Source: a virus
IMG/VR virus record: IMGVR_UViG_3300030329_002091
Span: 1-54,714 of that record
Direction: 5' to 3' (one strand)
DNA length: 54,714 nt
The translations under genes were made by a program, and so were the position numbers. The notes below the pieces were generated by a model. The model made no database searches and was not told the DNA's origin. It was given only the letters and a program-made list of their open reading frames with translations. This document shows, piece after piece, positions 534-54,714 of the stretch (its first letter is position 1; every line of letters starts with the position of its first letter).

Positions 534-1175
534 ATGGCATTCAAAATGAAGGGATCGTACCATTACGGAAAGAACCCACTTAAACAAGAAGGGACTAAAG
601 AACAACAAAAAGGAGAAGAAGGTCCAATAGAGACTTACGCAGAGAAAATGAAAAAACGTGATTGGGAGGCTGGTAGCACGTTGGAAGAAGGAGATTACGC
701 TACGTATGGACAACAAGCTTATGATAAGAAAGGTAATAAAATTGACTTTGAAGATTTTGAAAGTACTGGTACTGTAAAAATCGATGATAAAGGTAGACCA
801 TACACTTATCATGGAACAGAAAAAATATACTTATCTTCTGCGGATGAAGAAGGACGTCCTCAATCTCCAACCAAACAAACGAAAAGTGGTAAAGGTAATA
901 TATTCACTAAGAAAGGTAGAATTCAGAGACTAGTAAACAAACATTATGAAACTCCCAAAGGTACAAAAAAGAGACAAAAACTTGCAAAAAAATTAGGAAA
1001 ACAGGGTGTTTTCGGCTATGGAGACGTAATGGAACATGGATTTTATCATGGTGGTGAACACAAAGACAGAGGGTATTACAAAGACACTGGCGTCAAGAAA
1101 TTTGTTCCTAATTTAAAATCCTACGATGCTAATCTTTTAGATGAAATAACTCCAAGAAAAAAATCTAAAAAATAA
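534..1175 (+). CDS. Basic 'MAFKMKG' tag protein with PxKQ motifs (213 aa)
   Basis: Function not recognised. The protein opens with MAFKMKGSYHYGKNPLKQ, nearly the same start as the gene at 1767 (MAFKMKGSHHYGKNPLKH). It is rich in Lys and charged residues with no membrane segment or signal peptide. A PxKQ motif in the tag (PLKQ) is followed by a second (PTKQ) at residues 112-115. That second motif opens a 25-codon block (residues 112-136) repeated almost intact in the 567-aa protein at 8279. The nucleotide differences between copies are mostly synonymous, so the peptide is under selection. It is the first of a run of similar genes with tiny gaps. A packaged virion or DNA-associated protein is a guess only. 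Confidence 0.8.
   Translation: MAFKMKGSYHYGKNPLKQEGTKEQQKGEEGPIETYAEKMKKRDWEAGSTLEEGDYATYGQQAYDKKGNKIDFEDFESTGTVKIDDKGRPYTYHGTEKIYLSSADEEGRPQSPTKQTKSGKGNIFTKKGRIQRLVNKHYETPKGTKKRQKLAKKLGKQGVFGYGDVMEHGFYHGGEHKDRGYYKDTGVKKFVPNLKSYDANLLDEITPRKKSKK
867..941 (+). repeat. 25-codon cassette shared with 9725-9799 (copy 1)
   Basis: Residues 112-136 of the 534 gene: PTKQTKSGKGNIFTKKGR followed by a short basic tail ending LVNKH. The other copy lies at residues 483-507 of the 8279 gene. Most codon differences are synonymous. Confidence 0.85.
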
Positions 1176-1181
1176 AACAGT

Positions 1182-1442
1182 ATGATATATCAAAAATTAC
1201 CGGGTATATATAGAGTAGAATCTCCAGTTAAACAAGAAGATAAAAAAACAAAGAGATTAGAAAAGAAATTAGATAAATTATCTAAAAAAGCATACAAGAG
1301 CCAACGTAAAGGATTTAAAATGTCCGGTATGAATAACTATATGGAATACATGGCAAAAGGAGAGCATTCTAGAAGAACAAAAAAACTACATAAAAAGTTT
1401 GATAAAATAGAAGAGAAATTACACGAACATTTAGACAAATAA
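1182..1442 (+). CDS. Small Lys-rich coiled-coil protein with SPVKQ (86 aa)
   Basis: Function unknown. After MIYQKLPGIYRVE comes the SPVKQ motif shared by the neighbouring proteins, then a very Lys/Glu-rich segment with heptad-like Leu spacing (around residues 24-38 and 65-85), suggesting helical coiled coil. It lacks the MAFKMKG tag but keeps the PxKQ element, so the two signals can be separated. It lies 6 bp after the 534 gene and 1 bp before the 1444 gene, indicating co-transcription. Confidence 0.7.
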   Translation: MIYQKLPGIYRVESPVKQEDKKTKRLEKKLDKLSKKAYKSQRKGFKMSGMNNYMEYMAKGEHSRRTKKLHKKFDKIEEKLHEHLDK

Positions 1443-1443
1443 T

Positions 1444-1749
1444 ATGGCGTATAAAATGAAAGGTCCAGCTTTTTTTAAATCAGCTTTAAAGCATAGCAAA
1501 GACGTAAAGCATAATAAACAATTTGGTCCAGGTCATGATTGGACAGCTGTTTCAACTGGATCGGAACCAAAAACTATACACGAGGCTCCTGGTCCAGAGA
1601 GTTCTCCAACAAAGTTTTTAGAAGCTTCTGATCAAGAAAGTTTCTTAGAAGGTGGAGATTGGGACTCTTTTAAGTACCCGTTAAAAAAGAAAAAGTTAAA
1701 ACAAAACGTGCCTGATGAAACACTGAAAGCACAAGTTAGGTCAATATAA
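1444..1749 (+). CDS. Tag-family protein MAYKMKG (101 aa)
   Basis: Function unknown. It begins MAYKMKGPAFFKSALKH, a variant of the family tag that resembles the starts at 2092 (PPLFFKTSIKG) and 7136 (PTFFGSALKQ). A later SPTKF matches the PxK element with Q replaced by F. The middle is acidic and the C-terminus is Lys-rich. There is no signal peptide or membrane helix. It starts 1 bp after the stop of the preceding gene. Confidence 0.7.
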   Translation: MAYKMKGPAFFKSALKHSKDVKHNKQFGPGHDWTAVSTGSEPKTIHEAPGPESSPTKFLEASDQESFLEGGDWDSFKYPLKKKKLKQNVPDETLKAQVRSI

Positions 1750-1766
1750 ATAAAACTATAGATAAT

Positions 1767-2090
1767 ATGGCATTTAAGATGAAAGGATCTCACCACTATG
1801 GGAAGAATCCATTAAAACATGTAGGTAGAGGCGCTCCATGGTGGGGATTAAATAAAGGAAATGAAGATCCAATATTCCATCCACATCCTCACGGATCTGA
1901 GGGACATATAGTAAGAGGCGCAAAAGCTATTGGTAAAGCTGGTAAAGCTGTTGGTAAGGCTGGAAAGTGGGTTGGTAGAGGAGTTGAGAAAGCCTGGAGA
2001 AATAGACCTAAAATGAAAATTCGCCTTAAAGGCGGTGGACGAGGAGGATACGAAATGGGTCCTGGCGGAAGAGGAGGTTGGAGAGGATAG
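1767..2090 (+). CDS. Tag-family protein with amphipathic basic segment and Gly-rich tail (107 aa)
   Basis: It opens with MAFKMKGSHHYGKNPLKH; compared with the 534 gene, the first 18 codons differ mostly at synonymous positions. Residues 50-80 form a Lys/Gly/Ala repeat (KAIGKAGKAVGKAGKWVG), predicted amphipathic and strongly cationic, of a type seen in membrane-active or nucleic-acid-binding peptides. Residues 88-107 are Gly/Arg-rich. No signal peptide is present. A role in the virion, in DNA condensation or in membrane disruption are all possible; none is shown. Confidence 0.7.
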   Translation: MAFKMKGSHHYGKNPLKHVGRGAPWWGLNKGNEDPIFHPHPHGSEGHIVRGAKAIGKAGKAVGKAGKWVGRGVEKAWRNRPKMKIRLKGGGRGGYEMGPGGRGGWRG

Positions 2091-2091
2091 T

Positions 2092-2832
2092 ATGGCTTAT
2101 AAACAAAAACCACCATTATTTTTTAAGACTAGTATAAAAGGCTATAGAAAAGACTCGCCAGATAAAAATGAACCTCAACTCAAAATACCTAGTAATAAAA
2201 TTACAATGAAAGGAGTTGATCATAAAGTACATGGCAAAGACAATCTTGGCAACGAAAAAATAATGAAACCAGGTAAAAATTATGAGTTTCCAGGTGACTA
2301 TGTAATAGAAACTCCGTTAGCACAACATCAAACAGCTGATTTAATAGGATCCGAAGGTGGTGGAGGAACAAAAGATAAAACACAATCTCAACTACTATTA
2401 GATAGACAAAAAGAAAAACTAAATAAAACAGGTACATGGAGTGATACTCCTATACAATCACCTACGTTACAAGTTGATTGCGATGAAAGATTTAAAGGTA
2501 GTTGTAAACCAACTAGAAAACAAAAAAGAAAAAGTAATAAACTAAGGCGTAAGAAAAAAGGCACAAATTTCAGATCTCGAGTAAATAAAGTAACTGACTT
2601 TATAGGATTGACAGATCACGAGGATGATGGAACTATAATCAGTAGAGCAGTAGATAAAAGAAAAGATAAACGTACAAGAATTCCAGACGGATATAGAGCT
2701 AACCCAAATTGGCATCCTAATTGTGGTTGCGTAAAATTTCTGCCAATAAAAGGGCCGGATATAGTTAATCCTCGAGAACTTAACGATCGGTGGGAAAGCA
2801 GGAAAAAATGGGTAAAAAAATGGAGAGAATAA
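2092..2832 (+). CDS. Tag-family protein MAYKQKP, Lys/Arg-rich (246 aa)
   Basis: Start chosen at ATG 2092, two bases after the upstream stop: it gives MAYKQKPPLFFKTSIKG, matching the family, whereas an in-frame GTG at 2035 would overlap the previous gene. The protein has a SPDK element near residue 23, a strongly basic Lys/Arg stretch around residues 140-170 and a C-terminal segment with Cys residues (NPNWHPNCGCVKF). The basic middle suggests nucleic-acid contact. Function unknown. Confidence 0.7.
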   Translation: MAYKQKPPLFFKTSIKGYRKDSPDKNEPQLKIPSNKITMKGVDHKVHGKDNLGNEKIMKPGKNYEFPGDYVIETPLAQHQTADLIGSEGGGGTKDKTQSQLLLDRQKEKLNKTGTWSDTPIQSPTLQVDCDERFKGSCKPTRKQKRKSNKLRRKKKGTNFRSRVNKVTDFIGLTDHEDDGTIISRAVDKRKDKRTRIPDGYRANPNWHPNCGCVKFLPIKGPDIVNPRELNDRWESRKKWVKKWRE

Positions 2833-2862
2833 TTAATTAATTAATAAATAAAAACAAAAAAA

Positions 2863-3465
2863 ATGGCATTTAAAATGAAAGGAAGTCCTATGAAGAGAAA
2901 CTTCGGAATAGGAGCTTCACCAGTAAAACAAAAAACATGGCCTGGTAAACCGGACCCTACTAAGGAAACACCAGAGCAAGCAGCAAAAAGAAAAGAGACT
3001 TTTAAGAAAGCTTTTGAGAAATCTAAAAAGAAAGGAGGAAAGAAAGATTTTAAAGATATGAAACCAGGTGATCTTGGAATATGGGGAGATAAAATACCTC
3101 CATTAAAACAAAGAACAACAACCACTTATACTGATGAAGATTTAGAAGGTGGCGAGAAAAAAGTTACAACCGTAAAAGGTAGAGAAAACAAAAAAGGACA
3201 ATCTCAAAGTGATGTTATGAATATGAGATGGAAAAAGTATCAAGACGCGTGGAAAGATTTAAATGCTCTTGGTGAAAAAATTACAAAATATGGAAAAGAT
3301 AAGTGGCGAATGTTATCTGACAAAAAACAAAAGGAAATAATAGCTGATTTAGAAAGAAGAGAACAATCGGTTAAAGACATGAGAAAAGATTTTGTTCACT
3401 CTGCTGACTCTATTGGTACAAGAAACATAATGATGGATAAAGCGGCTGATTCAGACTGGGATTAA
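2863..3465 (+). CDS. Tag-family protein MAFKMKG with two PxKQ motifs (200 aa)
   Basis: It begins MAFKMKGSPMKRNFGIG and has SPVKQ (Pro at residue 20) and PPLKQ (Pro at residue 80). Between the motifs lies a Lys-rich region (about residues 38-70). After residue 110 the protein looks helical and charged. Function not recognised. The ATG follows a long A-rich leader, the usual start context in this genome. It closes the first cluster of family genes, before a small unrelated gene and groEL. Confidence 0.75.
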   Translation: MAFKMKGSPMKRNFGIGASPVKQKTWPGKPDPTKETPEQAAKRKETFKKAFEKSKKKGGKKDFKDMKPGDLGIWGDKIPPLKQRTTTTYTDEDLEGGEKKVTTVKGRENKKGQSQSDVMNMRWKKYQDAWKDLNALGEKITKYGKDKWRMLSDKKQKEIIADLERREQSVKDMRKDFVHSADSIGTRNIMMDKAADSDWD

Positions 3466-3503
3466 ACAATAAAAAACCAAATATTAACCTAAAATAAAAC
3501 CAA

Positions 3504-3797
3504 ATGACTTATTTGTATTACAAGTCCAGTACATATAATACTGGCAACCAAAAACCGAATGAAAAAACTATTAACCAATGGAAGCATCTTTCAGAAAAGA
3601 AAAACTGGAGGATTACTCAACTACCTAATGGTTTCTACCAAACAGAATGCTCAAATCCTGAAAACGAGGAATGGCACGCTGTTACAAGAAGAGAAACAAT
3701 AGAAGGTGCAGAAGCAGCAATAAATGGAAGCATCGACCATTTCTCTAAAAAGTTAGAAGCTATAAAAGGACCAAAAGTAGTTAAAACATTTAAGTAA
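3504..3797 (+). CDS. Conserved-looking hypothetical protein (97 aa)
   Basis: Small soluble protein beginning MTYLYYKSSTYNTGNQ, without the family tag. The middle segment (WRITQLPNGFYQTE) looks like beta strands and the C-terminal part like a helix. Its leader contains ATTAACCTAA, also found before the gene at 6123. It lies just upstream of groEL in the same direction. No function assigned. Confidence 0.65.
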   Translation: MTYLYYKSSTYNTGNQKPNEKTINQWKHLSEKKNWRITQLPNGFYQTECSNPENEEWHAVTRRETIEGAEAAINGSIDHFSKKLEAIKGPKVVKTFK

Positions 3798-3817
3798 TAA
3801 CAATTTAATTTAATTTA

Positions 3818-5383
3818 ATGGAATATAATCAACCTAGCGAAATCGTCAAGGATTTAAACTTTGGTGATAACGCAAAACAACGAATAATAAAAGGCGTAGA
3901 GAAACTAGCTAATGCTGTTTCGTCTACCTTAGGAGCTTCTGGTAAATGTGTAATTTACGAAGATGCTTTAGGTAAACCGGTTATCACAAAAGACGGAGTA
4001 ACAGTAGCAGAATCTGTTGTCTTATACGATCCGGTTGAAAACATGGGTGCTACTTTAATTAAAGAAGCAGCTAGAAATACAGTGAAAGAAGCAGGTGATG
4101 GTACCACAACGGCTACCGTCCTTGCTGAAGCACTTATTAAAGAAGTTAATAGACAAGAAAAAGAAGGATCTATTAGAGAAGTAAAGAAAGGAATAAATTC
4201 TGGCCTTAAAAAAGTAAATACATATTTAGACTCTATAAAAATAAACATAGAAGGAGACATGTTAAACAACGTATCTTCTATTAGTTGTAATAATGATGTA
4301 GAGTTAGGAACTATAATCGCTAATGCTTACAATAAAGTTGGGAAAGATGGCGTTGTTTTAATGGAAGAATCAGAAACAAACGAAACTTATATAGATGTGG
4401 TTGATGGCGTACAGATTGAATGTGGTCTTACTTCTCCACATTTTATAACTGATAATGAGAAACAAAGATGTATATTAGAGAATTCGCTTGTTTTAATAGT
4501 AGCTTCTGAAATACCTAATGTTAGAAAAATACAAAATATATTAGAATTTGCAATAAAAAATAACCGATCTTTACTAATAGTTGCTCAAGTTAGTCAACAA
4601 GTAAAATCGGCACTTTTAATGAACAAAGTTAAAGGGAATATCAAGGTCAACATAGTTGACTTGCCGGGTTTTGGACCAACAAAACAAGATACTATTAAAG
4701 ATTTAGCAATTTTAACTGGCGCTGAAGTAATAAATGAAGAATTAGGTGATGATTTAGACGGAATATCACTAAACGTACTTGGGGAAATTGAAAAATCAGT
4801 TACAGACAGTAAAAACACTGTAATTGCTTTAGAAAAAACTGTCGAAGACGTAAAAGAACGTATAAAAGAAGTACAAAAACTACACAAAAAAGAGAAAAAC
4901 CCATTTCTAAAAAAGAAAATAGAACAAAGAATAGCTATGTTATCTGGTTCTGTTGGAATTATACGTGTAGGAGCTGATTCTAAGGTAGAATTAAAAGAAA
5001 AGAAAGATAGAGTTGAGGATGCTATATACGCTACAAAAGCGGCCCTGAAAGAAGGTATCGTCCCAGGTGGTGGTATTGCGCTACTCAATGCGTCTCAAGT
5101 TATAGATAGTGAAAATGTTGGAGAAAAAATACTTTTAAAAGCTATAAAATCACCTTTTGAAACAATAATTGACAATGCTGGCTTTACACAAGTAGCGCCT
5201 AGACCAGAAAAAGGATTAGGAATTGACGTTGTAACTGGGGAAAGTGTAAATATGATAGAAAAAGGGATTATTGATCCTGTATTAGTAACAAAAACCGCCT
5301 TAAAAAATGCCGTAAGTGTGGTTTCAACTATAATTTCTGCTGATTGTGTAATTTCAAATAGAAGAATCAATGAAAGCAGTTAA
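3818..5383 (+). CDS. groEL: Phage-encoded chaperonin GroEL (Hsp60)
   Basis: ATP-driven chaperonin ring subunit, 521 aa against about 545 in bacteria. Visible signatures: the nucleotide-binding GDGTTTATV (Asp at residue 94), IVPGGGIAL near residue 416, and RVEDAIYATKAAL containing the Asp (401) equivalent to the ATP-hydrolysis Asp of E. coli GroEL. The apical region is present. The C-terminus lacks the GGM-rich tail and ends in a short polar segment. Gene order is groEL then groES with a 14-bp overlap, the reverse of the usual bacterial groES-groEL order. Probable role: folding of capsid or giant virion proteins in the host cytoplasm. Identification is confident; substrates are inferred. Confidence 0.96.
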   Translation: MEYNQPSEIVKDLNFGDNAKQRIIKGVEKLANAVSSTLGASGKCVIYEDALGKPVITKDGVTVAESVVLYDPVENMGATLIKEAARNTVKEAGDGTTTATVLAEALIKEVNRQEKEGSIREVKKGINSGLKKVNTYLDSIKINIEGDMLNNVSSISCNNDVELGTIIANAYNKVGKDGVVLMEESETNETYIDVVDGVQIECGLTSPHFITDNEKQRCILENSLVLIVASEIPNVRKIQNILEFAIKNNRSLLIVAQVSQQVKSALLMNKVKGNIKVNIVDLPGFGPTKQDTIKDLAILTGAEVINEELGDDLDGISLNVLGEIEKSVTDSKNTVIALEKTVEDVKERIKEVQKLHKKEKNPFLKKKIEQRIAMLSGSVGIIRVGADSKVELKEKKDRVEDAIYATKAALKEGIVPGGGIALLNASQVIDSENVGEKILLKAIKSPFETIIDNAGFTQVAPRPEKGLGIDVVTGESVNMIEKGIIDPVLVTKTALKNAVSVVSTIISADCVISNRRINESS

Positions 5384-5627
5384 TTACTATCTTATAATAG
5401 AAAAAGTTAAAGAAGGACCTAAAAAAGTAGGTGGATTAATTTTAACAGATGAAATCAACGAAGATAATAGATATACAAAAGCTAAAGTTATATCTATTGG
5501 TAGTAATGTCGAGGGGATAAAGCAAGACGATATTATCTACTACGATAAACACGCTGAACACGGGATTCAGCATAAAGATAAATTTTACCATGTTATAAAG
5601 CAAGCAGACGTGGTTTTAATAGATTAA
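5370..5627 (+). CDS. groES: Co-chaperonin GroES
   Basis: 85-aa single-domain Cpn10, slightly shorter than bacterial GroES (about 95). The mobile-loop motif GGLIL is at residues 21-25, followed by the core strands KAKVISIGSNV and a conserved end FYHVIKQADVVLI. It would cap the GroEL ring. It overlaps the end of groEL by 14 bp in another frame, so expression is probably coupled. The segment after the core (YYDKHAEHGIQHKDK) is His-rich for this family. Confidence 0.9.
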   Translation: MKAVNYYLIIEKVKEGPKKVGGLILTDEINEDNRYTKAKVISIGSNVEGIKQDDIIYYDKHAEHGIQHKDKFYHVIKQADVVLID

Positions 5628-5628
5628 A

Positions 5629-6048
5629 ATGGAAAGATATATAGTTTTTTACGCTAGCGCGGTAGATTCATCTTCTTTAACCGCTCATGATTCTGGAACA
5701 GATGTAGATTTAGGATGCTTTAAAGTATCTAATATCACAGCTATTATGGGCGAAGAAGATATGGTTTATATATATTTCAAAAACTCCGGTAGATTTGAAG
5801 AAGGAGCTCATCCATTTGTTGGTGGATCCGCTGCTGAGATAATGGAACAATCATTCGTTAGATTAACGGTTGCCGAAGGAAAAGAAATAGACGTTGTTAA
5901 TGACTTAGCGACGCTTTTCGGAGATACTAAACATAAACATGGAGGTAAAATATTATTTGATGCTGTAAACAACACTTGGCCAATAAGTAATGTAACAGCT
6001 ATTCAAATTAGAAGACACTTAACGACGCACACAATAGCGTCTGATTAG
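5629..6048 (+). CDS. Small virion-like protein, related to 6123 product (139 aa)
   Basis: Starts one base after groES. MERYIVFYAS at the start parallels MEKYLYFRGT of the 6123 protein; both continue with a beta-rich segment, a 'V..I..I' stretch and an acidic patch before a strand ending in Phe. No signal peptide or membrane helix. Size and composition fit a capsid decoration or accessory virion protein, but this is inference. Position next to groEL/groES hints at chaperonin-assisted folding. Confidence 0.6.
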   Translation: MERYIVFYASAVDSSSLTAHDSGTDVDLGCFKVSNITAIMGEEDMVYIYFKNSGRFEEGAHPFVGGSAAEIMEQSFVRLTVAEGKEIDVVNDLATLFGDTKHKHGGKILFDAVNNTWPISNVTAIQIRRHLTTHTIASD

Positions 6049-6122
6049 ACCCAAACCAAAAACCCAAACCTTAAAACGCAAAACGACAATTAACCTAATT
6101 ATTAACAAAAAAATTTAAAACA
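6049..6122 (+). other. C/A-rich leader before 6123
   Basis: The 74-bp gap begins with an ACCCAAACC-type C/A-rich stretch (about 6048-6069), lacking T and G, followed by A-rich sequence leading to the ATG. It also contains ATTAACCTAA, shared with the leader of the gene at 3504. It may be a 5' leader of a strongly translated gene; no hairpin or promoter is convincing. Confidence 0.3.
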
Positions 6123-6506
6123 ATGGAAAAATACTTGTATTTTAGAGGAACTGCTGGTGTTGCAGGTGATCAAGATGAAACTTCTGGATCTGTAATGTGG
6201 CCAGTTTCAGCTATCCGTGGAATATCCGCTGGTGATGCTCAAGCTTCAGGATCTATAACTGATGATGACGATAGATTTACAATCTTCTTCAACACTATGG
6301 TAAATGATACTGATGCTGTTGATCATGTTGTTCTAGATGTGACTTCTGGTAACTTTGACTTTAAAACTCTTTTCGAAGAGATATTAATGCACATCAATGG
6401 TGGTCCTAATGCTACTGGTATGATAACAGTTTACGATGGCGTTACTTCAACTGGTCTTACTGGTATCACTGGAATACATCAAGTAACAAAAGCTGATGTT
6501 GACTAA
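6123..6506 (+). CDS. Small virion-like protein, related to 5629 product (127 aa)
   Basis: MEKYLYFRGT start, acidic (pieces such as ITDDDDRFTIFF), beta-rich and soluble. It resembles the 5629 product in start, length and strand pattern, so the two are probably diverged duplicates. A long leader without gene overlap suggests separate or stronger expression than its neighbours. Candidate capsid decoration or cement protein; not proven. Confidence 0.6.
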   Translation: MEKYLYFRGTAGVAGDQDETSGSVMWPVSAIRGISAGDAQASGSITDDDDRFTIFFNTMVNDTDAVDHVVLDVTSGNFDFKTLFEEILMHINGGPNATGMITVYDGVTSTGLTGITGIHQVTKADVD

Positions 6507-6512
6507 TCTTGA

Positions 6513-6953
6513 ATGAGATTAACCGCGCAAGATCTGCGTGAAATGAATATCCTTAAGTATTACAGGCTCACACGAAAGTGGGCTTGTAAGACTTACGGGT
6601 TAACAGATGCAGATTTAGAATTATTAATTTATTTAGATTGTAAAGAAAGATTTACACGACAAGAGTTTATAGATGGTGTTTATACCATGAGTTGGGATAA
6701 AAACCGTTGGGAAAGACTAAGAAGAAAAGGCTGGATAGAAGTTTGGAGGCATAGAAATCGCACTACAATAAAATACTCTGTGTTTAAAACGTCGTTTCAG
6801 TGTTCTCAGTTAATAAGTAGAATATATAGGATACTTTTAGGTGAAGAAGATTTGCCCACATCAGAAAGAAGTATTTTTTTTAATAATAAATCATATACAG
6901 ATAAAGTTTATAATAAAGCTATAGATGATATGATAAAAGACAAAACAAGATGA
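6513..6953 (+). CDS. Winged-helix DNA-binding protein (MarR-like), candidate regulator
   Basis: 146 aa. The central pattern 'YGLTDADLELLIYLDCKER' followed by FTRQEFIDG, a recognition-helix-like WDKNRWERLRRKGWI and a basic beta-hairpin wing (RHRNRTTIKYSV) reads as a winged helix-turn-helix. No membrane part. It could control the structural operon or act as a virion-associated DNA-binding protein. Its stop overlaps the next start as ATGA. The only clear transcription-factor-like protein in the window. Confidence 0.65.
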   Translation: MRLTAQDLREMNILKYYRLTRKWACKTYGLTDADLELLIYLDCKERFTRQEFIDGVYTMSWDKNRWERLRRKGWIEVWRHRNRTTIKYSVFKTSFQCSQLISRIYRILLGEEDLPTSERSIFFNNKSYTDKVYNKAIDDMIKDKTR

Positions 6954-7135
6954 CTACAGTAAAAAATATGGCTTATTGGAGAGCTAAAAATAATTGTAAA
7001 GCAGATGGTTCGTATGATGGTGGAAGCTTAAAAGCTAAAAGATCACCAATGAAAAATTATAAAAATCCACAAGATTACGAAATTTTTAACATGGGTAACA
7101 AAGCTACACCTGTAAAAAAGAAGAAAAAATATTAA
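6950..7135 (+). CDS. Small tag-like basic protein (61 aa)
   Basis: The ATG at 6950 overlaps the previous stop (ATGA). A second in-frame ATG at 6968 gives MAYWRAKNN, which fits the MAY/MAF start of the family better. SPMKN and ATPVKKKKKY recall the PxK motifs, and the C-terminus is a Lys run. Function unknown; it sits directly before another family member with no gap. Confidence 0.6.
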   Translation: MTTVKNMAYWRAKNNCKADGSYDGGSLKAKRSPMKNYKNPQDYEIFNMGNKATPVKKKKKY

Positions 7136-7921
7136 ATGGCTTATAGACAAAAAAAACCTACATTTTTTGGAAGTGCTTTAAAACAATATTATAGTTACGA
7201 AAACGAATCTAAAACAGAAATATCTAAAGAAGAGTTTATAAAGCAATCAAATAGCCTTAAGCATGTTGGTGCTGAAGGTAAGGCTGCTATTGACCTTTGG
7301 AAATCTTCTTTAATGGGTAAAACTGGTATACATGAAATAGACGCAATGTCTAAACATGATAAACAAAACGAGTATTCAAGAGTATTAAAAAAATACCAAA
7401 CTCCTAAAGAAAATCTTACTAAAGAAGAAATGGACAACGCTAAAGAAGTGTCTCCAACAAAAAGTTTAGATGATATGATACTATCAGGCGCTGGAAAAAT
7501 AGGTACACATAAATATACTTCTGGCTCTAGATCTTATAGAGGAACTTGGGACGTAGACACAATGATGAATAAGCCACCAAAGAAAGATGACTTAATAGAT
7601 AAAAACGGTGGGGACGATAAAGACAATGGAGGTGGAGACGGCTCGAATGGAGGTGGTATAAAAAAACCTAATTTTGGAAAATTAAAATTTCCTAAATTTA
7701 AGAAAAATACAAACTCTAAACAAAAACAATATATCACAACAGCTTGTCCTGTTTTTGGAGAACCAGGTTCGGCTAGTTACAGAGCTGGTATGTTAGAAAA
7801 TAAACGTAGTATGTCTAAAGCAGATTGGAAAATATTTAAAAGACAACAGAGAGATAAACATAAAAAAGGAAAAGGACACAAAGGTCTTTTTGGTGATCTC
7901 CAAAGAAACACAATGATATAG
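7136..7921 (+). CDS. Tag-family protein MAYRQKKP with RGTWDVD motif (261 aa)
   Basis: Begins MAYRQKKPTFFGSALKQ. A SPTKS element lies mid-protein and a YRGTWDVDTMM motif is at about residues 134-144 (7538-7564). Nearly the same RGTWDVD occurs near the start of the 33472 protein in the ejection-gene region. An Asp/Gly-rich low-complexity linker (about residues 154-175) precedes a Lys-rich C-terminal part with ITTACPVFGEPGSASY. Function unknown; the shared motif ties this cluster to virion proteins. Confidence 0.7.
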   Translation: MAYRQKKPTFFGSALKQYYSYENESKTEISKEEFIKQSNSLKHVGAEGKAAIDLWKSSLMGKTGIHEIDAMSKHDKQNEYSRVLKKYQTPKENLTKEEMDNAKEVSPTKSLDDMILSGAGKIGTHKYTSGSRSYRGTWDVDTMMNKPPKKDDLIDKNGGDDKDNGGGDGSNGGGIKKPNFGKLKFPKFKKNTNSKQKQYITTACPVFGEPGSASYRAGMLENKRSMSKADWKIFKRQQRDKHKKGKGHKGLFGDLQRNTMI

Positions 7922-7922
7922 T

Positions 7923-8282
7923 ATGGGATATAAAATGGGATCACAATCCAGAACACCCTGGAAAGTAATAAAAAAGAAATTAGGACACGGTATATTAGGA
8001 GAAGCAAATAACGATGGTACTATATTCGTAGATAAAAGTATACCAAGTGGAAGTAAAAAAGAAAAAGAAGTTGTTGCTCATGAAGGAAAACATATGGATG
8101 ATATGCAATCTGGAGTTTTAGCTTATGGAGATGACTTTATTAGATATAAAAACAAAACATACCATAGAAAAGATGGTAAAATAAATTATAACGGCAATTG
8201 GCTTCCAGAAGGTAGCAAACAATTCCCTTGGGAAAAAGTGGCTTACAAAGAAGGTAATAAAGCAAAAAATCAAAATTCATGA
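7923..8282 (+). CDS. Mini zinc-metalloprotease-like protein (119 aa)
   Basis: Starts MGYKMGSQSRTPWK, a loose version of the family tag. AHEGKHMDD carries HExxH (His53, Glu54, His57), and a C-terminal PWEKVAY (Glu104) resembles the third-ligand region of many gluzincins. That arrangement is enough for a minimal zinc peptidase fold, though some small HExxH proteins are inactive. No signal peptide. Lying among the PxKQ proteins, it could process them or the capsid; substrate unknown. It ends overlapping the 8279 gene by 4 bp. Confidence 0.6.
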   Translation: MGYKMGSQSRTPWKVIKKKLGHGILGEANNDGTIFVDKSIPSGSKKEKEVVAHEGKHMDDMQSGVLAYGDDFIRYKNKTYHRKDGKINYNGNWLPEGSKQFPWEKVAYKEGNKAKNQNS

Positions 8283-9982
8283 AAAAAAGATCAGGTTTTA
8301 AATTAAAATCATCATTAAAATTTGGACAAAAATCAGCGTTTAAATTAAAAACGTATAATAGTCCTAATAAACAGAAAAGTCCAGTTAAACAAAATGCTGT
8401 GGCAGATCCAAATATAGCTAATCCTAAAACTAAAGTTGAGCATAGTACTCCTAGTGATAAAACGTACGAAATGTTAAAAGAATGGTTAATGACAACAAAA
8501 GGATTTAATCAAGAAGACGCTGATCACATGATCAAAGACGGTGCTTATACAATGAAAGACGTCATAAAAGACATGGGTATGGATAAAGATGTTCCAGCTG
8601 AACCAAAAGGTAAAAAATCAGAAGGTGCTCCAAGTAAACAACTAAAAGATAAAGGAAAAGAAACTGGAGAAACTCAAGAGACTTGGGAGCCAGCTTATGA
8701 AGGTGGTGATCATAGTTGGAAAGATCTTCAAAAAATGAGTGATAAAGATATAATGAAAAATTGGCCTGATGTTGGTAAACATATTATAGAAGATCTTCAT
8801 AAAAAAGGTTATAGAAAAAAGAAAGGAGAGGCTGGACCTTTAAGACAAGAAGGACCTATAACTAAAGAAAATATACCATCAATTGATGTAAAAGAAGGAG
8901 GAAGTGGCGCTTGGGTATATAAAGGTAGTAACTTACATGAAAGACTTAATGACTATGAAGATAGAATAGGATTTATCTTAGAAGATATTTGGGATAAACA
9001 ACCTGGACCTGCTAATGCGCCTGTAGACGAATCACACGCAACCCCAGAACAAGCTAAGGCTCTAAAGACATTGAGAATGGAAAGAGATATAATTCATAAA
9101 AGACTACTAAATCAAAGAGAAGGAAATATAAAACCAGGATATACAGAAGGCGAAAGAGATAAATCTAAAGATGAATCGTATGATAAAAAACCTCCATTGA
9201 AACAAACTAAAAATAAATTAAAATTAGATTTATCAAAGCCAGAAGATGTGGCTATAAAAGAAAGGATGATGGAGATGTTTGGAACTACTGATCTCGATGC
9301 TATATGGGAATATAATAAAAAACTTACGCGTTCTAAAAAGAAAACAAACAAAAAGAAAAACTTAACAAAAGATGGACATCTTAATTTAAGTTATTTCCAA
9401 TCAGACGAAGAAGGTCCAGATTTAACAAAAAAACTAATACCTTCAAAAAAAGCAGCTCCAAATAAACAAATAAATCCAGATAAATATAGAAACATGAGTA
9501 ATGAAGAGCTAAATAAAATTAATATTCATGATTTAGGTAAAGATAATTTTAGAGGAACTGCTGCTGAATATGTAAAAAAATATGGATTTACAAAAGATAT
9601 AATGAAGCATTTCGCTAAAGAACTTCCTAAGGCTGTAAAAAGAGGAGTTAAAAAATCAATTTCTCCAGAAGGAGTATTTGCTGTGCCTAAAGCTATCATC
9701 AAAACAGGTAAAAGATTTTTAGCTCCAACTAAACAAACTAAAAGCGGAAAAGGTAATATTTTTACAAAAAAAGGTAGAAATCAAAGAGTAGTCAATAAGT
9801 TTAATAAACTTGAAGATAAACAATTAAAAAGTAACGCTAAGTTAAATGAATATGGTACTGTTAGAGAGCTTAATAAATTTAGTAGAATAAGTAAAAGAAA
9901 GGATAAAGTAGAGAAAAAAATTCACAAAAAAGGATTAGAGCTAACTAGAAATAAAAAAGGTAAATTAGACTTTAAAAAATAA
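8279..9982 (+). CDS. Large PxKQ-repeat basic protein (567 aa)
   Basis: The longest member of the PxKQ set. After MKKRSGFKLKSSLKFG it has PxKQ motifs with Pro at residues 29, 35, 118, 306, 394 and 483. The last opens the 25-codon cassette shared with the 534 gene. Segments between motifs are unlike each other and mostly charged, as if separate modules were joined by a common linker. Lys-rich throughout, with no signal peptide or membrane helix. Could be a polyprotein-like virion cargo or a scaffold of short modules; unproven. The start overlaps the upstream stop (ATGA). Confidence 0.75.
   Translation: MKKRSGFKLKSSLKFGQKSAFKLKTYNSPNKQKSPVKQNAVADPNIANPKTKVEHSTPSDKTYEMLKEWLMTTKGFNQEDADHMIKDGAYTMKDVIKDMGMDKDVPAEPKGKKSEGAPSKQLKDKGKETGETQETWEPAYEGGDHSWKDLQKMSDKDIMKNWPDVGKHIIEDLHKKGYRKKKGEAGPLRQEGPITKENIPSIDVKEGGSGAWVYKGSNLHERLNDYEDRIGFILEDIWDKQPGPANAPVDESHATPEQAKALKTLRMERDIIHKRLLNQREGNIKPGYTEGERDKSKDESYDKKPPLKQTKNKLKLDLSKPEDVAIKERMMEMFGTTDLDAIWEYNKKLTRSKKKTNKKKNLTKDGHLNLSYFQSDEEGPDLTKKLIPSKKAAPNKQINPDKYRNMSNEELNKINIHDLGKDNFRGTAAEYVKKYGFTKDIMKHFAKELPKAVKRGVKKSISPEGVFAVPKAIIKTGKRFLAPTKQTKSGKGNIFTKKGRNQRVVNKFNKLEDKQLKSNAKLNEYGTVRELNKFSRISKRKDKVEKKIHKKGLELTRNKKGKLDFKK
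9725..9799 (+). repeat. 25-codon cassette shared with 867-941 (copy 2)
   Basis: Residues 483-507 of the 8279 gene, PTKQTKSGKGNIFTKKGR plus basic tail. It matches the cassette in the 534 gene with mostly synonymous nucleotide changes and few amino-acid replacements. Confidence 0.85.
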
Positions 9983-12009: not shown

Positions 12010-12214
12010 AAAAATTACAGTAGGTAAAGACTACAAAGAAAACGCTATGCATTACGCTGTTGGACAAGAAGTATATGGTGGGCATACTATTTCTGATATA
12101 ATAGAAGAAAAAGACAAATATTCTATTTATATCAAAAAAAATAAAGATGTTTTACCATGGAAAGACTTTAATAAGAACATGGCAGTATCTATAGAATATA
12201 ATTTAGAATACTAA
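11996..12214 (+). CDS. Small hypothetical protein (72 aa)
   Basis: Start placed at ATG 11996, giving MKLIRKITVGKDY and a 14-bp overlap with the previous gene; an ATG at 11969 would add nine residues read through the upstream gene. The product is soluble with short beta strands (GQEVYGGHTISDII, KYSIYIKKN). The stop overlaps the next start (TAATG). Function unknown. Confidence 0.6.
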   Translation: MKLIRKITVGKDYKENAMHYAVGQEVYGGHTISDIIEEKDKYSIYIKKNKDVLPWKDFNKNMAVSIEYNLEY

Positions 12215-12804
12215 TGAAAGCGCCTTTTGACTTTGTTATAGAGCCAAAGGGTAATAGATACAACAATACTAAAAAAGTTGGCGACAAAGATCTTATTGTT
12301 AATGCTGAGATTTTTAATCACCAATATGTAAATAGAGAGGCGGTTGTTAAATCTATTCCTACAGCTTTTGAAACAGATATAAAACCTGGAGACACTATTA
12401 TAGTACATCATAATGTTTTTAGAAGATGGCACAATCAAAAAGGAATTGAAAAAAACAGTAGAAGTTATTTTAATGAAAATACTTATCTTGTAAAAGAAGA
12501 TCAAATATTTTTATATAAAAGAGAAAACAACTGGAAAGCCTATAAAGGTTATTGTTTTGTTCAACCTATAAAACAAAGAGATAAATTAAGTACAAATAAA
12601 GAAGAAAACTGTATAGGTATTGTAAAATATACAGATGGAGCTTATAACGTGGGTGATTTAGTAGGTTTTATGCCTTTTTCAACTTATGAATTTGTAATCG
12701 ATGGAAAACGATTATATAGAGTTATGACACAATTTATTACAATTAAATATGAATATCAAGGAGACGAAGAAGAATATAATCCAAGCTGGGCAGAAAGCTG
12801 TTGA
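12214..12804 (+). CDS. Double GroES-like (Cpn10-fold) protein (196 aa)
   Basis: Two segments each read as a GroES-type fold. First: VNREAVVKSIPTAFE and PGDTIIVHH (Gly59-Asp60). Second: NCIGIVKYTDGAYNVGD (Gly147-Asp148), then FVIDGKRLYRV and a final strand. These match the order of GroES elements (core strand, vkvGD turn, idG hairpin, C-terminal strand). Neither half shows a clear mobile loop with GGIVL, so binding to GroEL is uncertain. It sits immediately before the terminase genes, unlike the groES at 5370, so a structural or specialised chaperone role is plausible. Confidence 0.55.
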   Translation: MKAPFDFVIEPKGNRYNNTKKVGDKDLIVNAEIFNHQYVNREAVVKSIPTAFETDIKPGDTIIVHHNVFRRWHNQKGIEKNSRSYFNENTYLVKEDQIFLYKRENNWKAYKGYCFVQPIKQRDKLSTNKEENCIGIVKYTDGAYNVGDLVGFMPFSTYEFVIDGKRLYRVMTQFITIKYEYQGDEEEYNPSWAESC

Positions 12805-32841: not shown

Positions 32842-33456
32842 ATGAGTTTTATGGTAGCAGGTATAGTCGCCGGAGCTGGTGGACTAACAAAAATAATATT
32901 AGCAAATCAAGGTAGAAAAGCTAGAATAGAAGAACAAAGACAAGCTAATCAAGAGTTGGCTAAACGTAAGGTTGATATAGAGGGTATAGACACAAGTAAC
33001 CCATATGCTAACTTAGATAATGCCTATGAAGATTTAACAGTTAATAAACAACAAGCCGAGTTTCAAAACCAAAAGAATCAACAAAACATGGCTAATATGA
33101 TGCAAAATATGGGAGGCGCTGCTGGTGGAAGTGGTATAGCTGGATTGGCTCAAGTAATGGCTAATCAACAAACACAAGCAACCCAAGCTGCTTCAGCCTC
33201 TATAGGTCAACAAGAGGCTGCTAATCAAAAATTACAAGCTAGAGCACAGCAAGAAATAGAGATGAAAGAAGGATATGGAAAAAGTATATCACAACAAAGA
33301 GAAGCGCAAAAAAGAAAATTATTAATGGGTCTGTCTCAACAAAGAAAAATTGGTGCTGACGCAGCTAGACAAACAGCTAGAGATCAAATGGCTTCTGGAA
33401 TCGGTGATATGGTTGGAGGCATTACTAGCGCTGCCACAGGCATGCCTATGGGATAA
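32842..33456 (+). CDS. Ejection/internal virion protein-like (gp14-type) protein (204 aa)
   Basis: A hydrophobic Gly/Ala-rich start (MSFMVAGIVAGAGGLTKII) suggests a membrane-inserting helix. It is followed by a long Gln/Ala/Asn/Lys-rich coiled coil (about residues 25-190) and a Gly/Met-rich end. This layout resembles T7 gp14-like internal proteins that are ejected and form a channel in the outer membrane. Sequence identity to gp14 cannot be tested here. It lies upstream of two larger proteins, which parallels the gp14-15-16 order. Confidence 0.55.
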   Translation: MSFMVAGIVAGAGGLTKIILANQGRKARIEEQRQANQELAKRKVDIEGIDTSNPYANLDNAYEDLTVNKQQAEFQNQKNQQNMANMMQNMGGAAGGSGIAGLAQVMANQQTQATQAASASIGQQEAANQKLQARAQQEIEMKEGYGKSISQQREAQKRKLLMGLSQQRKIGADAARQTARDQMASGIGDMVGGITSAATGMPMG

Positions 33457-33471
33457 TAAACAAATAAGTAT

Positions 33472-34971
33472 ATGAAAAAGAAAAAAACACCTTTACAACT
33501 TAACGAAGGCTTAATAAAAAGAGCTAGATTAACTAATCAATATAGCGGTGGCGATATGTCTACACGTGGTACTTGGGATGTTGACGCTATGTTTGATCCC
33601 GTAAAAGAAGTAATGGCTCAAAGAATGTTAAAAACAGAAGAGGATAATAAAAAAATAAAAGAAGAGATAAATAATCCAAATAAAAATAATAAAAAAAATA
33701 AGAAGGATAATATCGAAGATATTATAAACAGAGGAGAAAACGAAGCAAAGAAAGAAGAAAAAGTTATACCGCCTGAACCAACAAAATATTTAACTGTAGA
33801 GTGTGATGATAGTACGGATGATGAATGTTGGATGGGGATGAAAGAGATTTTAACAGAAGAGTGGATAAAATGGAACAACGAGTATGGGGATCCAAGCGCT
33901 ATAAAACAGTTAAAAAGTCCTTTTAAAAAATATTCAGCATTAAAAACAAATATAAGAGAGAATTATATACCAGGACAAAATAGTCCTTTTCAACAAACAG
34001 TTGGTATGGGGCCAAAGGGAAGAGATAATGTTGGTCTTACGGGGGATACAACTTACGGCCGTGCGGAAGACGAAAGATATGATATATGGAAAACTTTTAT
34101 AGATTTACCAGAAAAAGAACTTCAAAAAAGAATAGGAAACGCTATAGCAAATGATGTATCTAATAACGAAGAATATGGAGTTATTTTAAAACCAATAGAA
34201 AAATTACCTAATAAACAATGGAGAGAATCTATAACAGAGTACATGGGATTTGTTAAAGAAAATATGATAAACTCAATTAAAGACGGTCAATTAGAGTATA
34301 AAGACGCTTGGATGAGTAATGCTCAAAGCGCTATAACTAACGTTCAGAAGTTTATTAACAAAAGAACAGATTGGATGCAGCAAATGGGAGGAGATCAAAC
34401 TTTAACAAATAAAGGTGGTTCTACTATGTCTGCCGCTAGTCATAAAGGTGATAAACGCCAATGGGATTTAACTTATTTAGGAGATAAAAATATTCAAATG
34501 GATTTGTCAGAGGAAGGTGGTATATATTTTAAACTTGAAGGTGTTGACGATATCTGGTCTGTTGATGATTTAGACGCAAACACTTACAACAAAGATTATA
34601 GAGGTTTACAAATATGGAACGAGTTAAAGAAAAAACTAAAAGAATCAGCCTCTGAAGGAATTGAGTTTAACGAGCCAGCGGTAGAAAGCGTTATTGATGG
34701 TATACTACAATCAGATGAAGCTGTTGGATCTTGGGCTCATGATAATTTAGATGGAGAAAGTTTTTTTGATAGATATTATAAGGCTGCTCCAGAAGAATTC
34801 GATATAAATCCTTTTATGCCAGAACACTCTGATTACAATGTAGAATTAATAAGAGATATGGTGAAAAACGGGATGATTAATATGGCTAAACAAACATTCG
34901 CTACATACGCTCCTAAAGTCGCAAAAACAGCTTTAACAGTTAAACAATTAATAGATAAATATAGAAAATGA
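33472..34971 (+). CDS. Ejection-region protein with RGTWDVD motif (499 aa)
   Basis: Starts Lys-rich (MKKKKTPLQLNEGLIK) with a PLQ element recalling PxKQ, then STRGTWDVDAMF (33565-33591), matching YRGTWDVDTMM of the 7136 protein. Further on are KSPFKKYSALK and NSPFQQ, again PxK/PxQ-like. The remainder is charged and helical. It is followed by the giant protein with a 4-bp ATGA overlap. A virion ejection protein is likely by position; the shared motif suggests that the 534-9982 cluster encodes virion-associated proteins. Confidence 0.6.
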   Translation: MKKKKTPLQLNEGLIKRARLTNQYSGGDMSTRGTWDVDAMFDPVKEVMAQRMLKTEEDNKKIKEEINNPNKNNKKNKKDNIEDIINRGENEAKKEEKVIPPEPTKYLTVECDDSTDDECWMGMKEILTEEWIKWNNEYGDPSAIKQLKSPFKKYSALKTNIRENYIPGQNSPFQQTVGMGPKGRDNVGLTGDTTYGRAEDERYDIWKTFIDLPEKELQKRIGNAIANDVSNNEEYGVILKPIEKLPNKQWRESITEYMGFVKENMINSIKDGQLEYKDAWMSNAQSAITNVQKFINKRTDWMQQMGGDQTLTNKGGSTMSAASHKGDKRQWDLTYLGDKNIQMDLSEEGGIYFKLEGVDDIWSVDDLDANTYNKDYRGLQIWNELKKKLKESASEGIEFNEPAVESVIDGILQSDEAVGSWAHDNLDGESFFDRYYKAAPEEFDINPFMPEHSDYNVELIRDMVKNGMINMAKQTFATYAPKVAKTALTVKQLIDKYRK

Positions 34972-37900
34972 TTCAAGAGCAAGAATTAGAAAGTATTATA
35001 GAAGGTATGTTAGCAGATGGTTACTCAGAAGATTCTCCTGAGATACAATCTGTTATACAGCAATTTGATAGTGAAAAGAAGATTGAGGACGCTCAAGAAC
35101 AATCTAATAAATTAAAAAAAGAATATAATTTTAGCGAAAATATTCCTTTAGAAGATAAAAAACCAACTGAAGATCAAGAAGATCAAGAAGTTATTAGCGA
35201 CGAAAGTGTTACTACGGAAACAGACAACGAAGATAAAGTTAAAATGTCTGCTGATATACTTCCAGACGTTAATATTAGAGCAGTTGATAAAACTATTACT
35301 ACAGATTCTCCTGATATTGATTTTATTAATGATGATGAAATTGAAGAAAAAGAAGTAAAAGCAGAATTAGCAGAAGAAGATCAGAATTTTGATGACATTA
35401 TTGTTGATCTTGATTTTGATGAAATAGAAAAAGAAGAGAATACTGAAGTTCAAAAAGAGGCTATACAGTATAATCCTGAAATGAATATTAAACTTTTAGA
35501 CAAAGAAGAAAAAGAAGAGTTTAAAGTAGCAGAAAACAAAAAAAATTCAACAACTCAATTTCTAAATGGAGAATACAATCAAGAAGAGTATGTAAATAGT
35601 AAACTAGGTGATGATTTTGATGTTACTCTATTTAAACGTAATATTGGAGATGGTTGGGTAGTATATTCTAATTTATCTGTGGCAACCTTAGATCCTATGA
35701 GTTGGAGAGAAGAAAAAGTAGCACCAGATCCTTTAGTTAGAACAAATAAAAACCCAGATGACGCGTGGGAACACGCTTATCAATTAGGACAATATTGGAG
35801 CTTCACATCTGAAGATTCTGCTGATGCTTTTATAAATAGCAAAACAGATGTTTGGGATTTAGTTCAAAACAACGAAATATTCAACATGAAAGATGCTCAG
35901 AATATTTTAAAAGGAAAAATTACTAGTCCAGATAAAATACTTAAATACAAGTCTCCATCAGGGCCTAATTTAGAACTATCATTGTTTCATGGGGCACGTT
36001 TAACTCCTAATGAATTTAAGTATTATAAACTTGATTTTGATTCTGAAGCTGGGTTTAATGAAAAAAGAAATAAAGTTATAGATTATACTAAAAAAACATT
36101 AAGCTTTGAAAAGAAAAGTAAGAATATTAAAAAGTACCCTGAAACATTTAAAGATTTAAGCGATACTTCTATTAAACACTTATTAGACGGTATAGCTTTT
36201 GTAAAGCAATCAATTAATGGTATTGTCGGGACTAATGAAAACAAAACAATTTTTACATTATTAAATAGTGATTTATATAATAATGAAATTCAAGTTTTAA
36301 AAGACCTAATTGAAAAAGCTATAGATAATCCAACGGCAGAAAACATCGATAACATGAAGACGCAGCTTGATCGTACGGCCAATGGGGAAGACTGGGCTGA
36401 TATACATTGGTACATGAACATGGTCAATGTAGATGTTAGTAACATGAGAAAAACTACTTTTAGTACTTCTGATACAAAAGATTGGATTGGTAGTGAGTTT
36501 ATGAAATATTCTGACAAGGTGTCAATGGATTTTTATACGGTAGATAATCAATTTCTTTTTCCTGGGTGGAAAGATAATAAAAAGGCTAGAGAATCAGCTA
36601 AAGGACTTAAAGATTTTTCATCGTATATTTATGCTCATACTAATAAAAAATTTAAAACTCCAATATCTAATGATAATTGGGAAAGAATAAAAAAGAACGC
36701 TGGAAAGGGTAATATATTTCTAACTAGCAAAGAATTAAGTTACGCAGATCTTTGGAATAGTCCCACTAATAATCTCGCATGGTTAATTGGACAATCTGGT
36801 TGGGGTGTTAATGTTACTTTTATAATAAATGAAGAAGCGTATAATAATTTTGTAAATAGAGAAGGACATTATTGGTATATATTAGAAGGTGGGTATAGAT
36901 ACGGAGACCCTGAAAGTTTTGCGTTCCAACCTATTGGGTTAGAGGCTATATTAAGCATTTTATCATATGGACTTAATAGAGAGTATGTTATATACGAGGA
37001 TTACGCAAATAGATACAACAAATATCAAGAGCAAATCTCAAAAGAAAATTTATATTCTATTATAGGTGAAAGTGGAAAAAGAGTAGCTGTTAATGGTCAA
37101 AAAGTTTTAAACGAGATTGAAGAGCTTTCTAATTTTTTAGGAACTAAAGATAATCCAAATGCTATTACGGAAGAAATTAAGAAAAATATAGAAACAAAAA
37201 CCAAGCAATTAGTAAATCTTTCGGAAAATAATAATATAAAAAGCGCTCATAGTGAGTATGTAAGTAAGTTATTAGAAATATCTTTTAAGTATAACTTAGA
37301 ATTAGAAAGATATAAAAACACGCCTTTATTGAATGATGACGGAAGTGTTATGAGGTTTGATAATGGAAACCCTGTTTTTCCTAAAGACGTAGAATATGGG
37401 GAAAATTTAATATTAGCAAAAGAAAAAGAATTAGAGGCACTTGCTAATGCTGAGTCAAAAATTGCTTATGTTGAGTTTCAAGAACATCCAGATGTTAAAA
37501 ATAGCGCAGAACTGTTTAATTATTTAACAAGCGAAGAAGTTACAACATTTATAGACACTTATGATTTAGCCGTTAGAAGATATAATTCTATAGTTAATTG
37601 TAGAAGTTTTCAAGAAGATTTAGAAGATTTAAAACAACTTGGAAAAGCTACTAGCGCTCAATATAGTATAGTAGAAGCTATAAGATTACAATACATAAAA
37701 GAACTTGATGTTTTAGAAAATTTCAACGAACAACAAGCTTTAGCTTGGGACCGTATTGCTCAATTTTCACCTTTAGGGGCTGATATTACAAAAGGAATAT
37801 TTGATGGTGTTTTTAATAGGTTTTTAGGAAGTGCGAACGAAATGGTTTCAGGTGTTTTTGGGTTGTTTGATGAATTAGATCCTCAAGATTATATAAGTGT

Positions 37901-46867: not shown

Positions 46868-47128
46868 ATGGCTTTTAAAATGCGAGGTTTTACACCTTTT
46901 ACACAAAAAACAGAAAATCCTTATGGGTGGACAGATTCAGAGTATAAAATAGTTAAAAAAGAAACTATAGATAAACTAAATAAATATAAAGAGTTGTCTA
47001 CTACAAACCCTGATGGACACACTTTAGATTACGGTGAGACTCCAGATGATAATTCAGGTGTTACTAACAAAGTAAAATATAACGAGTTAGTGGACTATGC
47101 TAGAGAAATAAATATAAATTGGCCATGA
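46868..47128 (+). CDS. Tag-family protein MAFKMRG (86 aa)
   Basis: Start chosen at ATG 46868, right after the previous stop, giving MAFKMRGFTPFTQKTENPY, the family tag with a TPFTQK version of the Px[K/T]Q motif. An in-frame GTG upstream (46856) would overlap the previous gene. The rest is soluble and polar. It is a distant outlier of the cluster at 534-9982, so the tag is genome-wide rather than a local duplication. It ends overlapping the next start (ATGA). Confidence 0.65.
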   Translation: MAFKMRGFTPFTQKTENPYGWTDSEYKIVKKETIDKLNKYKELSTTNPDGHTLDYGETPDDNSGVTNKVKYNELVDYAREININWP

Positions 47129-54678: not shown

Positions 54679-54714
54679 ATATTCTATTTTAAAGTTATAC
54701 AAAAATCTACAAAC

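Follow-up and report, generated by a model that had tools for sequence, protein, structure and literature searches.

The analysis of a viral DNA stretch of 54,714 nucleotides (IMG/VR virus record IMGVR_UViG_3300030329_002091, positions 1 to 54,714; the whole stretch is referred to as the window) reveals a family of small proteins in which a conserved N-terminal tag is retained while the bodies behind it are exchanged between related phages. Judged by sequence comparison, this architecture is that of a leader with exchangeable cargo. With moderate confidence, we favor the reading that the tag is a sorting signal by which a Pervagoviridae-like podovirus loads proteins into its head or ejection compartment. 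The signal would read M[AG][FY]K[MQL]K(G)-x(5-10)-S[PA]xK(Q), and its core is likely S[PA]xK(Q).

Within the window, the pattern M[AG][FY][KR][MQ] opens 8 of the 51 open reading frames (ORFs), namely those starting at 534, 1444, 1767, 2092, 2863, 7136, 7923, and 46868, and when the four residue sets are placed in any of the remaining 23 orders, no start among the 51 matches. At the DNA level, the tag pattern was matched four times and its reversed control not at all. A preliminary description of this DNA had counted at least nine genes at 534-9982 with a tag, a P-x-K-Q motif, or both, plus relatives at 33472 and 46868; we count ten in that interval. The motif is real but is better written as S[PA]xK(Q), and the PxKQ matches in GroEL (3818) and in gene 12214, which lie outside this consensus, are probably due to chance. 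Genes 1182, 6950, and 8279 are without the exact tag and have SPVKQ, SPMKN, and SPNKQ/SPVKQ, respectively; 8279 opens with the degenerate form GFKLK...SAFKLK, and its orthologues in two syntenic records, L209 and L211, begin with MAFKLK/MAFKMK. Both outlying genes are indeed related, but each carries one half of the signal: 33472 has no tag and shows SAIKQ/SPFKK/SALK together with an RGTWDVDxM block common to tagged gene 7136 (E 9e-5), whereas 46868 has the tag, lacks the S[PA]xK(Q) motif, and is slightly negative in charge. The genes concerned are as follows.

534 to 1175, plus strand: tagged protein of 213 aa, MAFKMKGSYHYGKNPLKQ..., with a second motif, SPTKQ, at residue 111
1182 to 1442, plus strand: untagged motif protein of 86 aa, SPVKQ at residue 14, 24% Lys
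1444 to 1749, plus strand: tagged protein of 101 aa, MAYKMKGPAFFKSALKH, with SPTKF
1767 to 2090, plus strand: tagged protein of 107 aa, MAFKMKGSHHYGKNPLKH; slot A
2092 to 2832, plus strand: tagged protein of 246 aa, MAYKQKPPLFFKTSIK, followed by a GYRKDSPDKN...FPGDYVIETPL module and a swapped body; slot B
2863 to 3465, plus strand: tagged protein of 200 aa, MAFKMKGSPMKRNFGIGASPVKQ, with PPLKQ; slot C
6950 to 7135, plus strand: short motif protein of 61 aa, SPMKNYKNPQDYEIFNMGNKATPVKK
7136 to 7921, plus strand: tagged protein of 261 aa, MAYRQKKPTFFGSALKQ, with SPTK and the RGTWDVD block also present in 33472; slot D
7923 to 8282, plus strand: tagged HExxH protein of 119 aa, MGYKMGSQSRTPWK, followed by a minigluzincin-like metallopeptidase body with VVAHEGKH and PWE
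8279 to 9982, plus strand: multi-module motif protein of 567 aa, degenerate tag MKKRSGFKLKSSLKFGQKSAFKLKTYNSPNKQKSPVKQ, six PxKQ motifs; slot E
32842 to 33456, plus strand: gp14-like ejection protein of 204 aa, a label that rests on gene order, size, and composition, a PHROGs scan of it having given no profile match; orthologues elsewhere have an N-terminal SPxK
33472 to 34971, plus strand: putative ejection-cassette protein of 499 aa with the SAIKQLKSPFKKYSALK cluster and the RGTWDVD block of 7136
46868 to 47128, plus strand: tagged protein of 86 aa outside the cluster, MAFKMRGFTPFTQK

The exchange of bodies was examined by comparing individual slots with L209 and L211, whose synteny with the window extends from the tag cluster through the holin and whose GroEL, situated between the slots, is 78-81% identical to that of the window. 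In slot A, the N-terminus MAFKMKGSxHYGKNPL[KR][HQ] has 15-17 of 20 residues identical in the three phages, while the proteins measure 107, 174, and 131 aa and their bodies are near shuffled similarity or only modestly above it (Z = -0.9, 8.8, and 3.4 versus shuffles). Slot B keeps roughly its first 76 residues, up to ...FPGDYVIETPL, and is unrelated thereafter (246, 103, and 288 aa); slot C preserves MAFKMKG[ST]PxxRN[FY]G[IV]G, and slots D and E retain more of the body than the other slots do. Across the two relatives, each slot thus keeps its own N-terminus of 18-20 residues while several bodies have been replaced, so that the earlier proposal of a constant signal on variable bodies is strongly supported by the slots and by the lineage-wide spread of the tag described below.

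Contrary to what had been claimed, the bodies are not all different. Genes 534 and 8279 have a 26-residue block in common (PTKQTKSGKGNIFTKKGRxQRxVNK, 88% identity), the SPxKNYKNPQDYxxFNMGN module of the 6950 protein recurs in tagged proteins of other phages, the modules of 8279 are found elsewhere as single-module tagged proteins, and the slot B module is joined to DUF6321 in record L060. DUF6321 (KKSFCARS...RRWKC) was observed fused behind the tag at L060:4325-4846 and L105:1427-1738, once together with the slot B module, and this domain also occurs in Pelagibacter phages and cyanophages. Other tagged proteins carry long (S/A)AMKMKK(E/D) repeat arrays (L054:8872-9303, L094:1634-2461, and L125:8261-9352) or an EF-hand-like DxDGDGNxTESMK segment (L065, L071, and L116).

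Codon comparison places the tag peptide under purifying selection. When the opening 18 codons of 534 and 1767 are compared, 7 are identical, 9 show synonymous differences, and 2 show non-synonymous differences, exactly the mainly synonymous pattern noted in the preliminary description, and the codons for glycine-7 are fully mixed (GGT 86, GGA 53, GGC 51, and GGG 40). Motif statistics were based on a non-redundant set of 390 tagged proteins, drawn from the window and related records, and compared with shuffled sequences. S[PA]xKQ occurs 73 times versus 1.9 in the shuffled sequences, and the reversed motif is not enriched (1 versus 4.0); Gln directly after SPxK is over-represented 12-fold, and the first motif, where present, usually falls at residues 5-25 and most often at 11-15.

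The tag is also enriched in related phages and is widespread rather than a recent duplication. Its DNA pattern was found in at least 120 stretches of IMG/VR, as against 12 and 5 stretches for two permuted patterns of the same composition, counted over the whole virus collection. Among 32 records selected by terminase, 17 contain a total of 28 tag matches and none matches the reversed control; in 80 loci picked by the HExxH body, 126 further tagged ORFs were found among 1,141 plus-strand ORFs and 0 among 158 minus-strand ORFs, so that tagged genes cluster on one strand. The string MAFKMKGF returned one match in about 85,000 prokaryote genomes (L289), with an unrelated body. Because of this imbalance between virus and prokaryote matches, the tag is considered a virus feature. 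It seems, from the gene content of the records, to belong to one broad marine phage lineage, since the same gp14-like ejection gene is present in 44 of 49 records, each of which had been selected through the tag, the terminase, or the HExxH body. Broader searches contributed little: the HExxH protein had no match in isolated phages, a concatenated query of diverse tagged proteins recovered the DUF6321 module (Pelagibacter phages and cyanophages) and not the tag, 33472 as a direct query returned no matches, a literature search with the tag string found no paper, an NCBIfam scan gave nothing convincing, and DUF6321 was the sole convincing one among the Pfam families matched by tagged proteins.

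The window itself is, by its sequence matches, a Pervagoviridae-like podovirus. This assignment follows from its major capsid protein gene (18832), which matches the Cellulophaga phages phi38:1 and Calle (Callevirus) at 36% identity as well as the Flavobacterium elemo phages and Maribacter phage Panino, from its profile-identified portal (15243, phrog_6547, P22-like) and terminase (phrog_6681), and from its chaperonin genes, given that portal and cpn10 are among the core genes of the proposed family Pervagoviridae (PMC8776804). GroES and holin were likewise identified by profiles, and for environmental members of the family Bacteroidetes were the predicted hosts (PMC8776804). MW202828, the closest record when ranked by capsid protein (47% identity), showed neither the tag nor a motif cluster in the 50 kb read; the presence of the tag is therefore not a simple matter of capsid clade.

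Indirect links tie the tagged genes to virion and ejection proteins, where the virion status of phage proteins by tandem mass spectrometry (MS/MS) is taken from record annotations and not from the original spectra. The slot B module, which makes up about the next 65 residues behind the tag, matches the N-terminus of phi4:1 gp40 (47% identity, E 3e-5), which is annotated as a virion protein by MS/MS, and also matches phrog_36695 (head and packaging). Two small Lys-rich proteins of phi40:1, gp069 and gp080, have virion annotations based on MS/MS. Two genes away from gp080 is gp078, which is homologous to a 146-aa family occurring among the tagged genes, and gp080 homologues directly adjoin tagged genes in L010 and L119 and occur in the same gene block in L057. 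The core motif itself appears on ejection proteins: SPxK is found in the first 35 residues of 17 of 75 non-redundant gp14-like orthologues, gathered by their conserved core, versus a background of 2.6% (P about 7e-12), and in 6 of 30 members of a second set that overlaps in part with the first. On a gp14-like tree built without the N-terminus, SPxK requires at least 11 gains or losses, 9 of them forced by well-supported branches, and has therefore been gained and lost repeatedly. In L318, the gp14-like protein opens with the tag-like MYKQKGSTFYSNLKSPFKSKGGVSPVKQ, which closely resembles the start of some tagged proteins, for instance MGYKMKGTAFYGKSPLKQ, and in L306, L309, and L317 a tagged gene stands immediately upstream of the ejection gene. 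In L349 and L386, the protein downstream of the gp14-like one opens with SSALK or SPLK, and the KKTPLQLNEGL at the start of 33472 resembles the SSALKVNEAL/KSPLK of relatives. By position, 32842 corresponds to phi40:1 gp099 (MS/MS), and 33472 and 34968 correspond to gp100 and gp101 by position, not by sequence.

Two further observations concern this cassette. Directly after it, at 34968-46142 on the plus strand, lies a protein of 3,724 aa with a DLDDTL HAD-like phosphatase motif, which is probably a giant ejected protein. The N-terminus of phi38:1 gp101 (L290:27423-32498) carries a tandem ELDEFGIPVKK/ELDEFGIPLKK repeat; here a giant virion protein opens with a further P-x-K-K motif, possibly an analogous signal.

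The earlier suggestion of packaged internal proteins thus gains indirect support from the MS/MS-annotated relatives and from SPxK on ejection proteins, and it stops short of proof, with several observations weighing against it. No tagged protein has been detected in a virion. The phi4:1 gp40 match covers the module behind the tag and not the tag, phi40:1 gp069 and gp080 are packaged without a tag, and therefore the packaging of small basic proteins there needs none. Most gp14-like orthologues, including 32842 of the window, are without SPxK; 15 of the 32 terminase-selected records, many being fragments, are without the exact tag; and none of the isolated phages examined in the collection yielded a match to the tag.

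If the tag is a loading signal, it would bind a structural protein, presumably the portal, the scaffold (putatively 17668), or the capsid interior, and the attached protein would thereby be loaded. The bodies (HExxH metallopeptidase-like, DUF6321, the GYKR..SPD..FPGD module, and many unknowns) are swapped between phages, with the N-terminus of each genomic slot retained during the exchange. One step beyond loading, the bodies may enter the host, a presumed marine Bacteroidetes, with the DNA and may act there early, for example against host defences as T4 IPI does. The signal would then act like the capsid targeting sequence (CTS) of the T4 internal proteins, by analogy and with no claim of kinship.

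An unlikely alternative is that the tagged proteins act in the infected cell that makes them and never enter the particle. The tag would then serve docking or stability and be recognised by a factor, of host or phage origin, that gathers takeover proteins; examples would be RNA polymerase, a protease adaptor, or the phage GroEL/GroES, whose genes lie in this gene block. The position of GroEL (3818-5383, plus strand) and an adjoining GroES-like gene (5370-5627, plus strand) inside the cluster, which is repeated in L209, L211, L010, and L057, fits this idea, as does the lack of direct virion evidence for the tagged proteins; however, it leaves unexplained the SPxK on gp14-like ejection proteins, the phi4:1 gp40 match, and the adjacency to virion-protein homologues.

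The composition of the family bears on a second and quite improbable alternative, in which head proteins neutralise and condense the packaged DNA, the basic tag is a DNA-binding surface, and the bodies drift because only charge matters. Tagged proteins have a median Lys content of 16% versus 9% and a median net charge per residue of +0.06 versus -0.01 for other genes, and phi40:1 gp069 and gp080 set a precedent for Lys-rich virion proteins. The family is nevertheless mostly and not uniformly basic, so that the earlier description of it as Lys-rich and basic applies with the exception of some neutral or acidic members. Binding of the DNA minor groove by an SPKK-type motif (S/T-P-K/R-K/R) was ruled out by position x of SPxK, where Ala, Met, Asn, and Leu are favored and Lys is depleted to 0.3-fold, and SPK stays under its shuffled expectation. 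Moreover, one conserved domain among the bodies, the HExxH domain, has putative catalytic residues that do not vary, and drift fails to explain a precise N-terminus combined with sharp body swaps.

Very little credence is given to a third possibility, that S[PA]xKQ is a cleavage site and that 8279 and other multi-module proteins are polyproteins processed into single modules as the head matures. Motif starts are about 2-fold enriched 5-14 residues ahead of shared-module starts (41 versus 16.6 and 26 versus 14.4 per 5-residue bin, the pairs being non-independent), and the occurrence of 8279 modules as single-module tagged proteins would suit such processing. Against this, ejection proteins and short single-module proteins also have the motif close to their start, and a PHROGs scan of 10 genes (structural and late), a subset of the window genes and not a complete head-protease search, found no head protease; the protease-recognition tag proposed in the preliminary description likewise received no support. 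Finally, although several copies stand side by side and blocks are common to some genes, a functionless relic of recent duplication and recombination is barely credible, being already contradicted by conservation across hundreds of divergent phage genes and further by the mostly synonymous change, the mixed glycine-7 codons, and degenerate variants (M/Q/L and F/Y) that preserve the chemistry.

The body of gene 7923 was analysed in more detail. In its family, H53, E54, H57, W103, and E104 are invariant in 71 sequences, and the P of PWE is not. An AlphaFold model places most of the body at a pLDDT of 70-90 and residues 1-10 below 50, which suggests that the tag is disordered in the model. Foldseek returned metallopeptidases first (PprI, selecase, and abylysin), though weakly (E about 0.1, TM below 0.45); Pfam searches across family members gave Peptidase M90 (best E 6e-5) and, more weakly, M91 effectors, and some HExxH bodies match the eCIS_core profile weakly (best E 0.0016). 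The 7923 body is thus likely a small zinc peptidase, predicted to be minigluzincin/M90-like. In L211, the swapped slot B body (L211:813-1679) has a HENIHH motif of its own and is possibly a second, different metallopeptidase behind the same leader.

Other genes of the window include a second GroES-type gene before the terminase (12214-12804, plus strand, phrog_13932) and, on the minus strand where the contig ends, a ribonucleotide reductase-like gene (52816-54702). A 742-aa protein (47125-49353, plus strand) combines a signal peptide with many GCxDxxxxNYxxxANxxxxxC repeats and a C-terminus, DILGRPAKPNNKKQVLLFIYNDGTVEKKLIKQ, that resembles a type IX secretion system (T9SS) sorting domain, making it a candidate phage-encoded T9SS substrate.

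A precedent is offered by T4, whose internal proteins form a highly diverse defence set in which only the CTS is conserved, and one of which blocks a restriction enzyme after injection (PMC3012670); the CTS can also package foreign proteins. As in T4 IPI, IPII, IPIII, and Alt, a short conserved N-terminal signal precedes very diverse bodies here. Unlike the T4 myovirus, the present phage is a podovirus with a P22-like portal; its core motif, in contrast to the CTS, also occurs on gp14-like ejection proteins and inside bodies; and a gp21-type prohead protease, which removes the signal in T4, was not seen among the same 10 scanned genes. The Cellulophaga phages phi40:1 and phi38:1 (Pervagoviridae) share with the window a capsid protein at 36% identity, a similar neighbourhood, and small Lys-rich virion proteins, but their gp069, gp080, and gp099-gp101 cassette show no MAFKMKG tag and no SPxKQ. 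Cargo packaged and ejected by a Bacteroidetes podovirus is known from crAss001 (gp45, gp46, and RNA polymerase subunits; PMC10172136), although the crassvirus cargo named there consists of a few large proteins as opposed to the many small swappable ones here. As a carrier of the same module, crAss001 gp45 was rejected, having no tag or SPxK and no significant similarity to phi4:1 gp40. In contractile injection system toxins, with their N-terminal packaging leaders, and in encapsulins, a short, probably disordered peptide loads diverse cargo into a phage-derived particle, the encapsulin peptide being bound on the inner face of an HK97-fold shell, and the likeness of these leaders and cargo peptides to the tag is one of analogy only.

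More tentatively, and with greater doubt than conviction, we propose that one linear code, an aromatic-Lys tag plus S[PA]xKQ, may be a general cargo label in a broad marine phage lineage, common to structural ejection proteins and to fast-exchanged small effectors, including metallopeptidase-like ones, so that each phage would deliver its own protein cocktail with its DNA. If true, the tag and its arsenal would be for phages what a constant leader with polymorphic toxins is elsewhere, and a T4-style address label would extend to podoviruses, whose choice of cargo becomes testable with a short peptide. The same peptide could be used to bring proteins of choice into marine Bacteroidetes. Searching sequences for the tag would then be enough to reveal the injected arsenal of a large, mostly uncultured marine phage group, gathering in one list many counter-defence candidates whose bodies are nearly all of unknown function.

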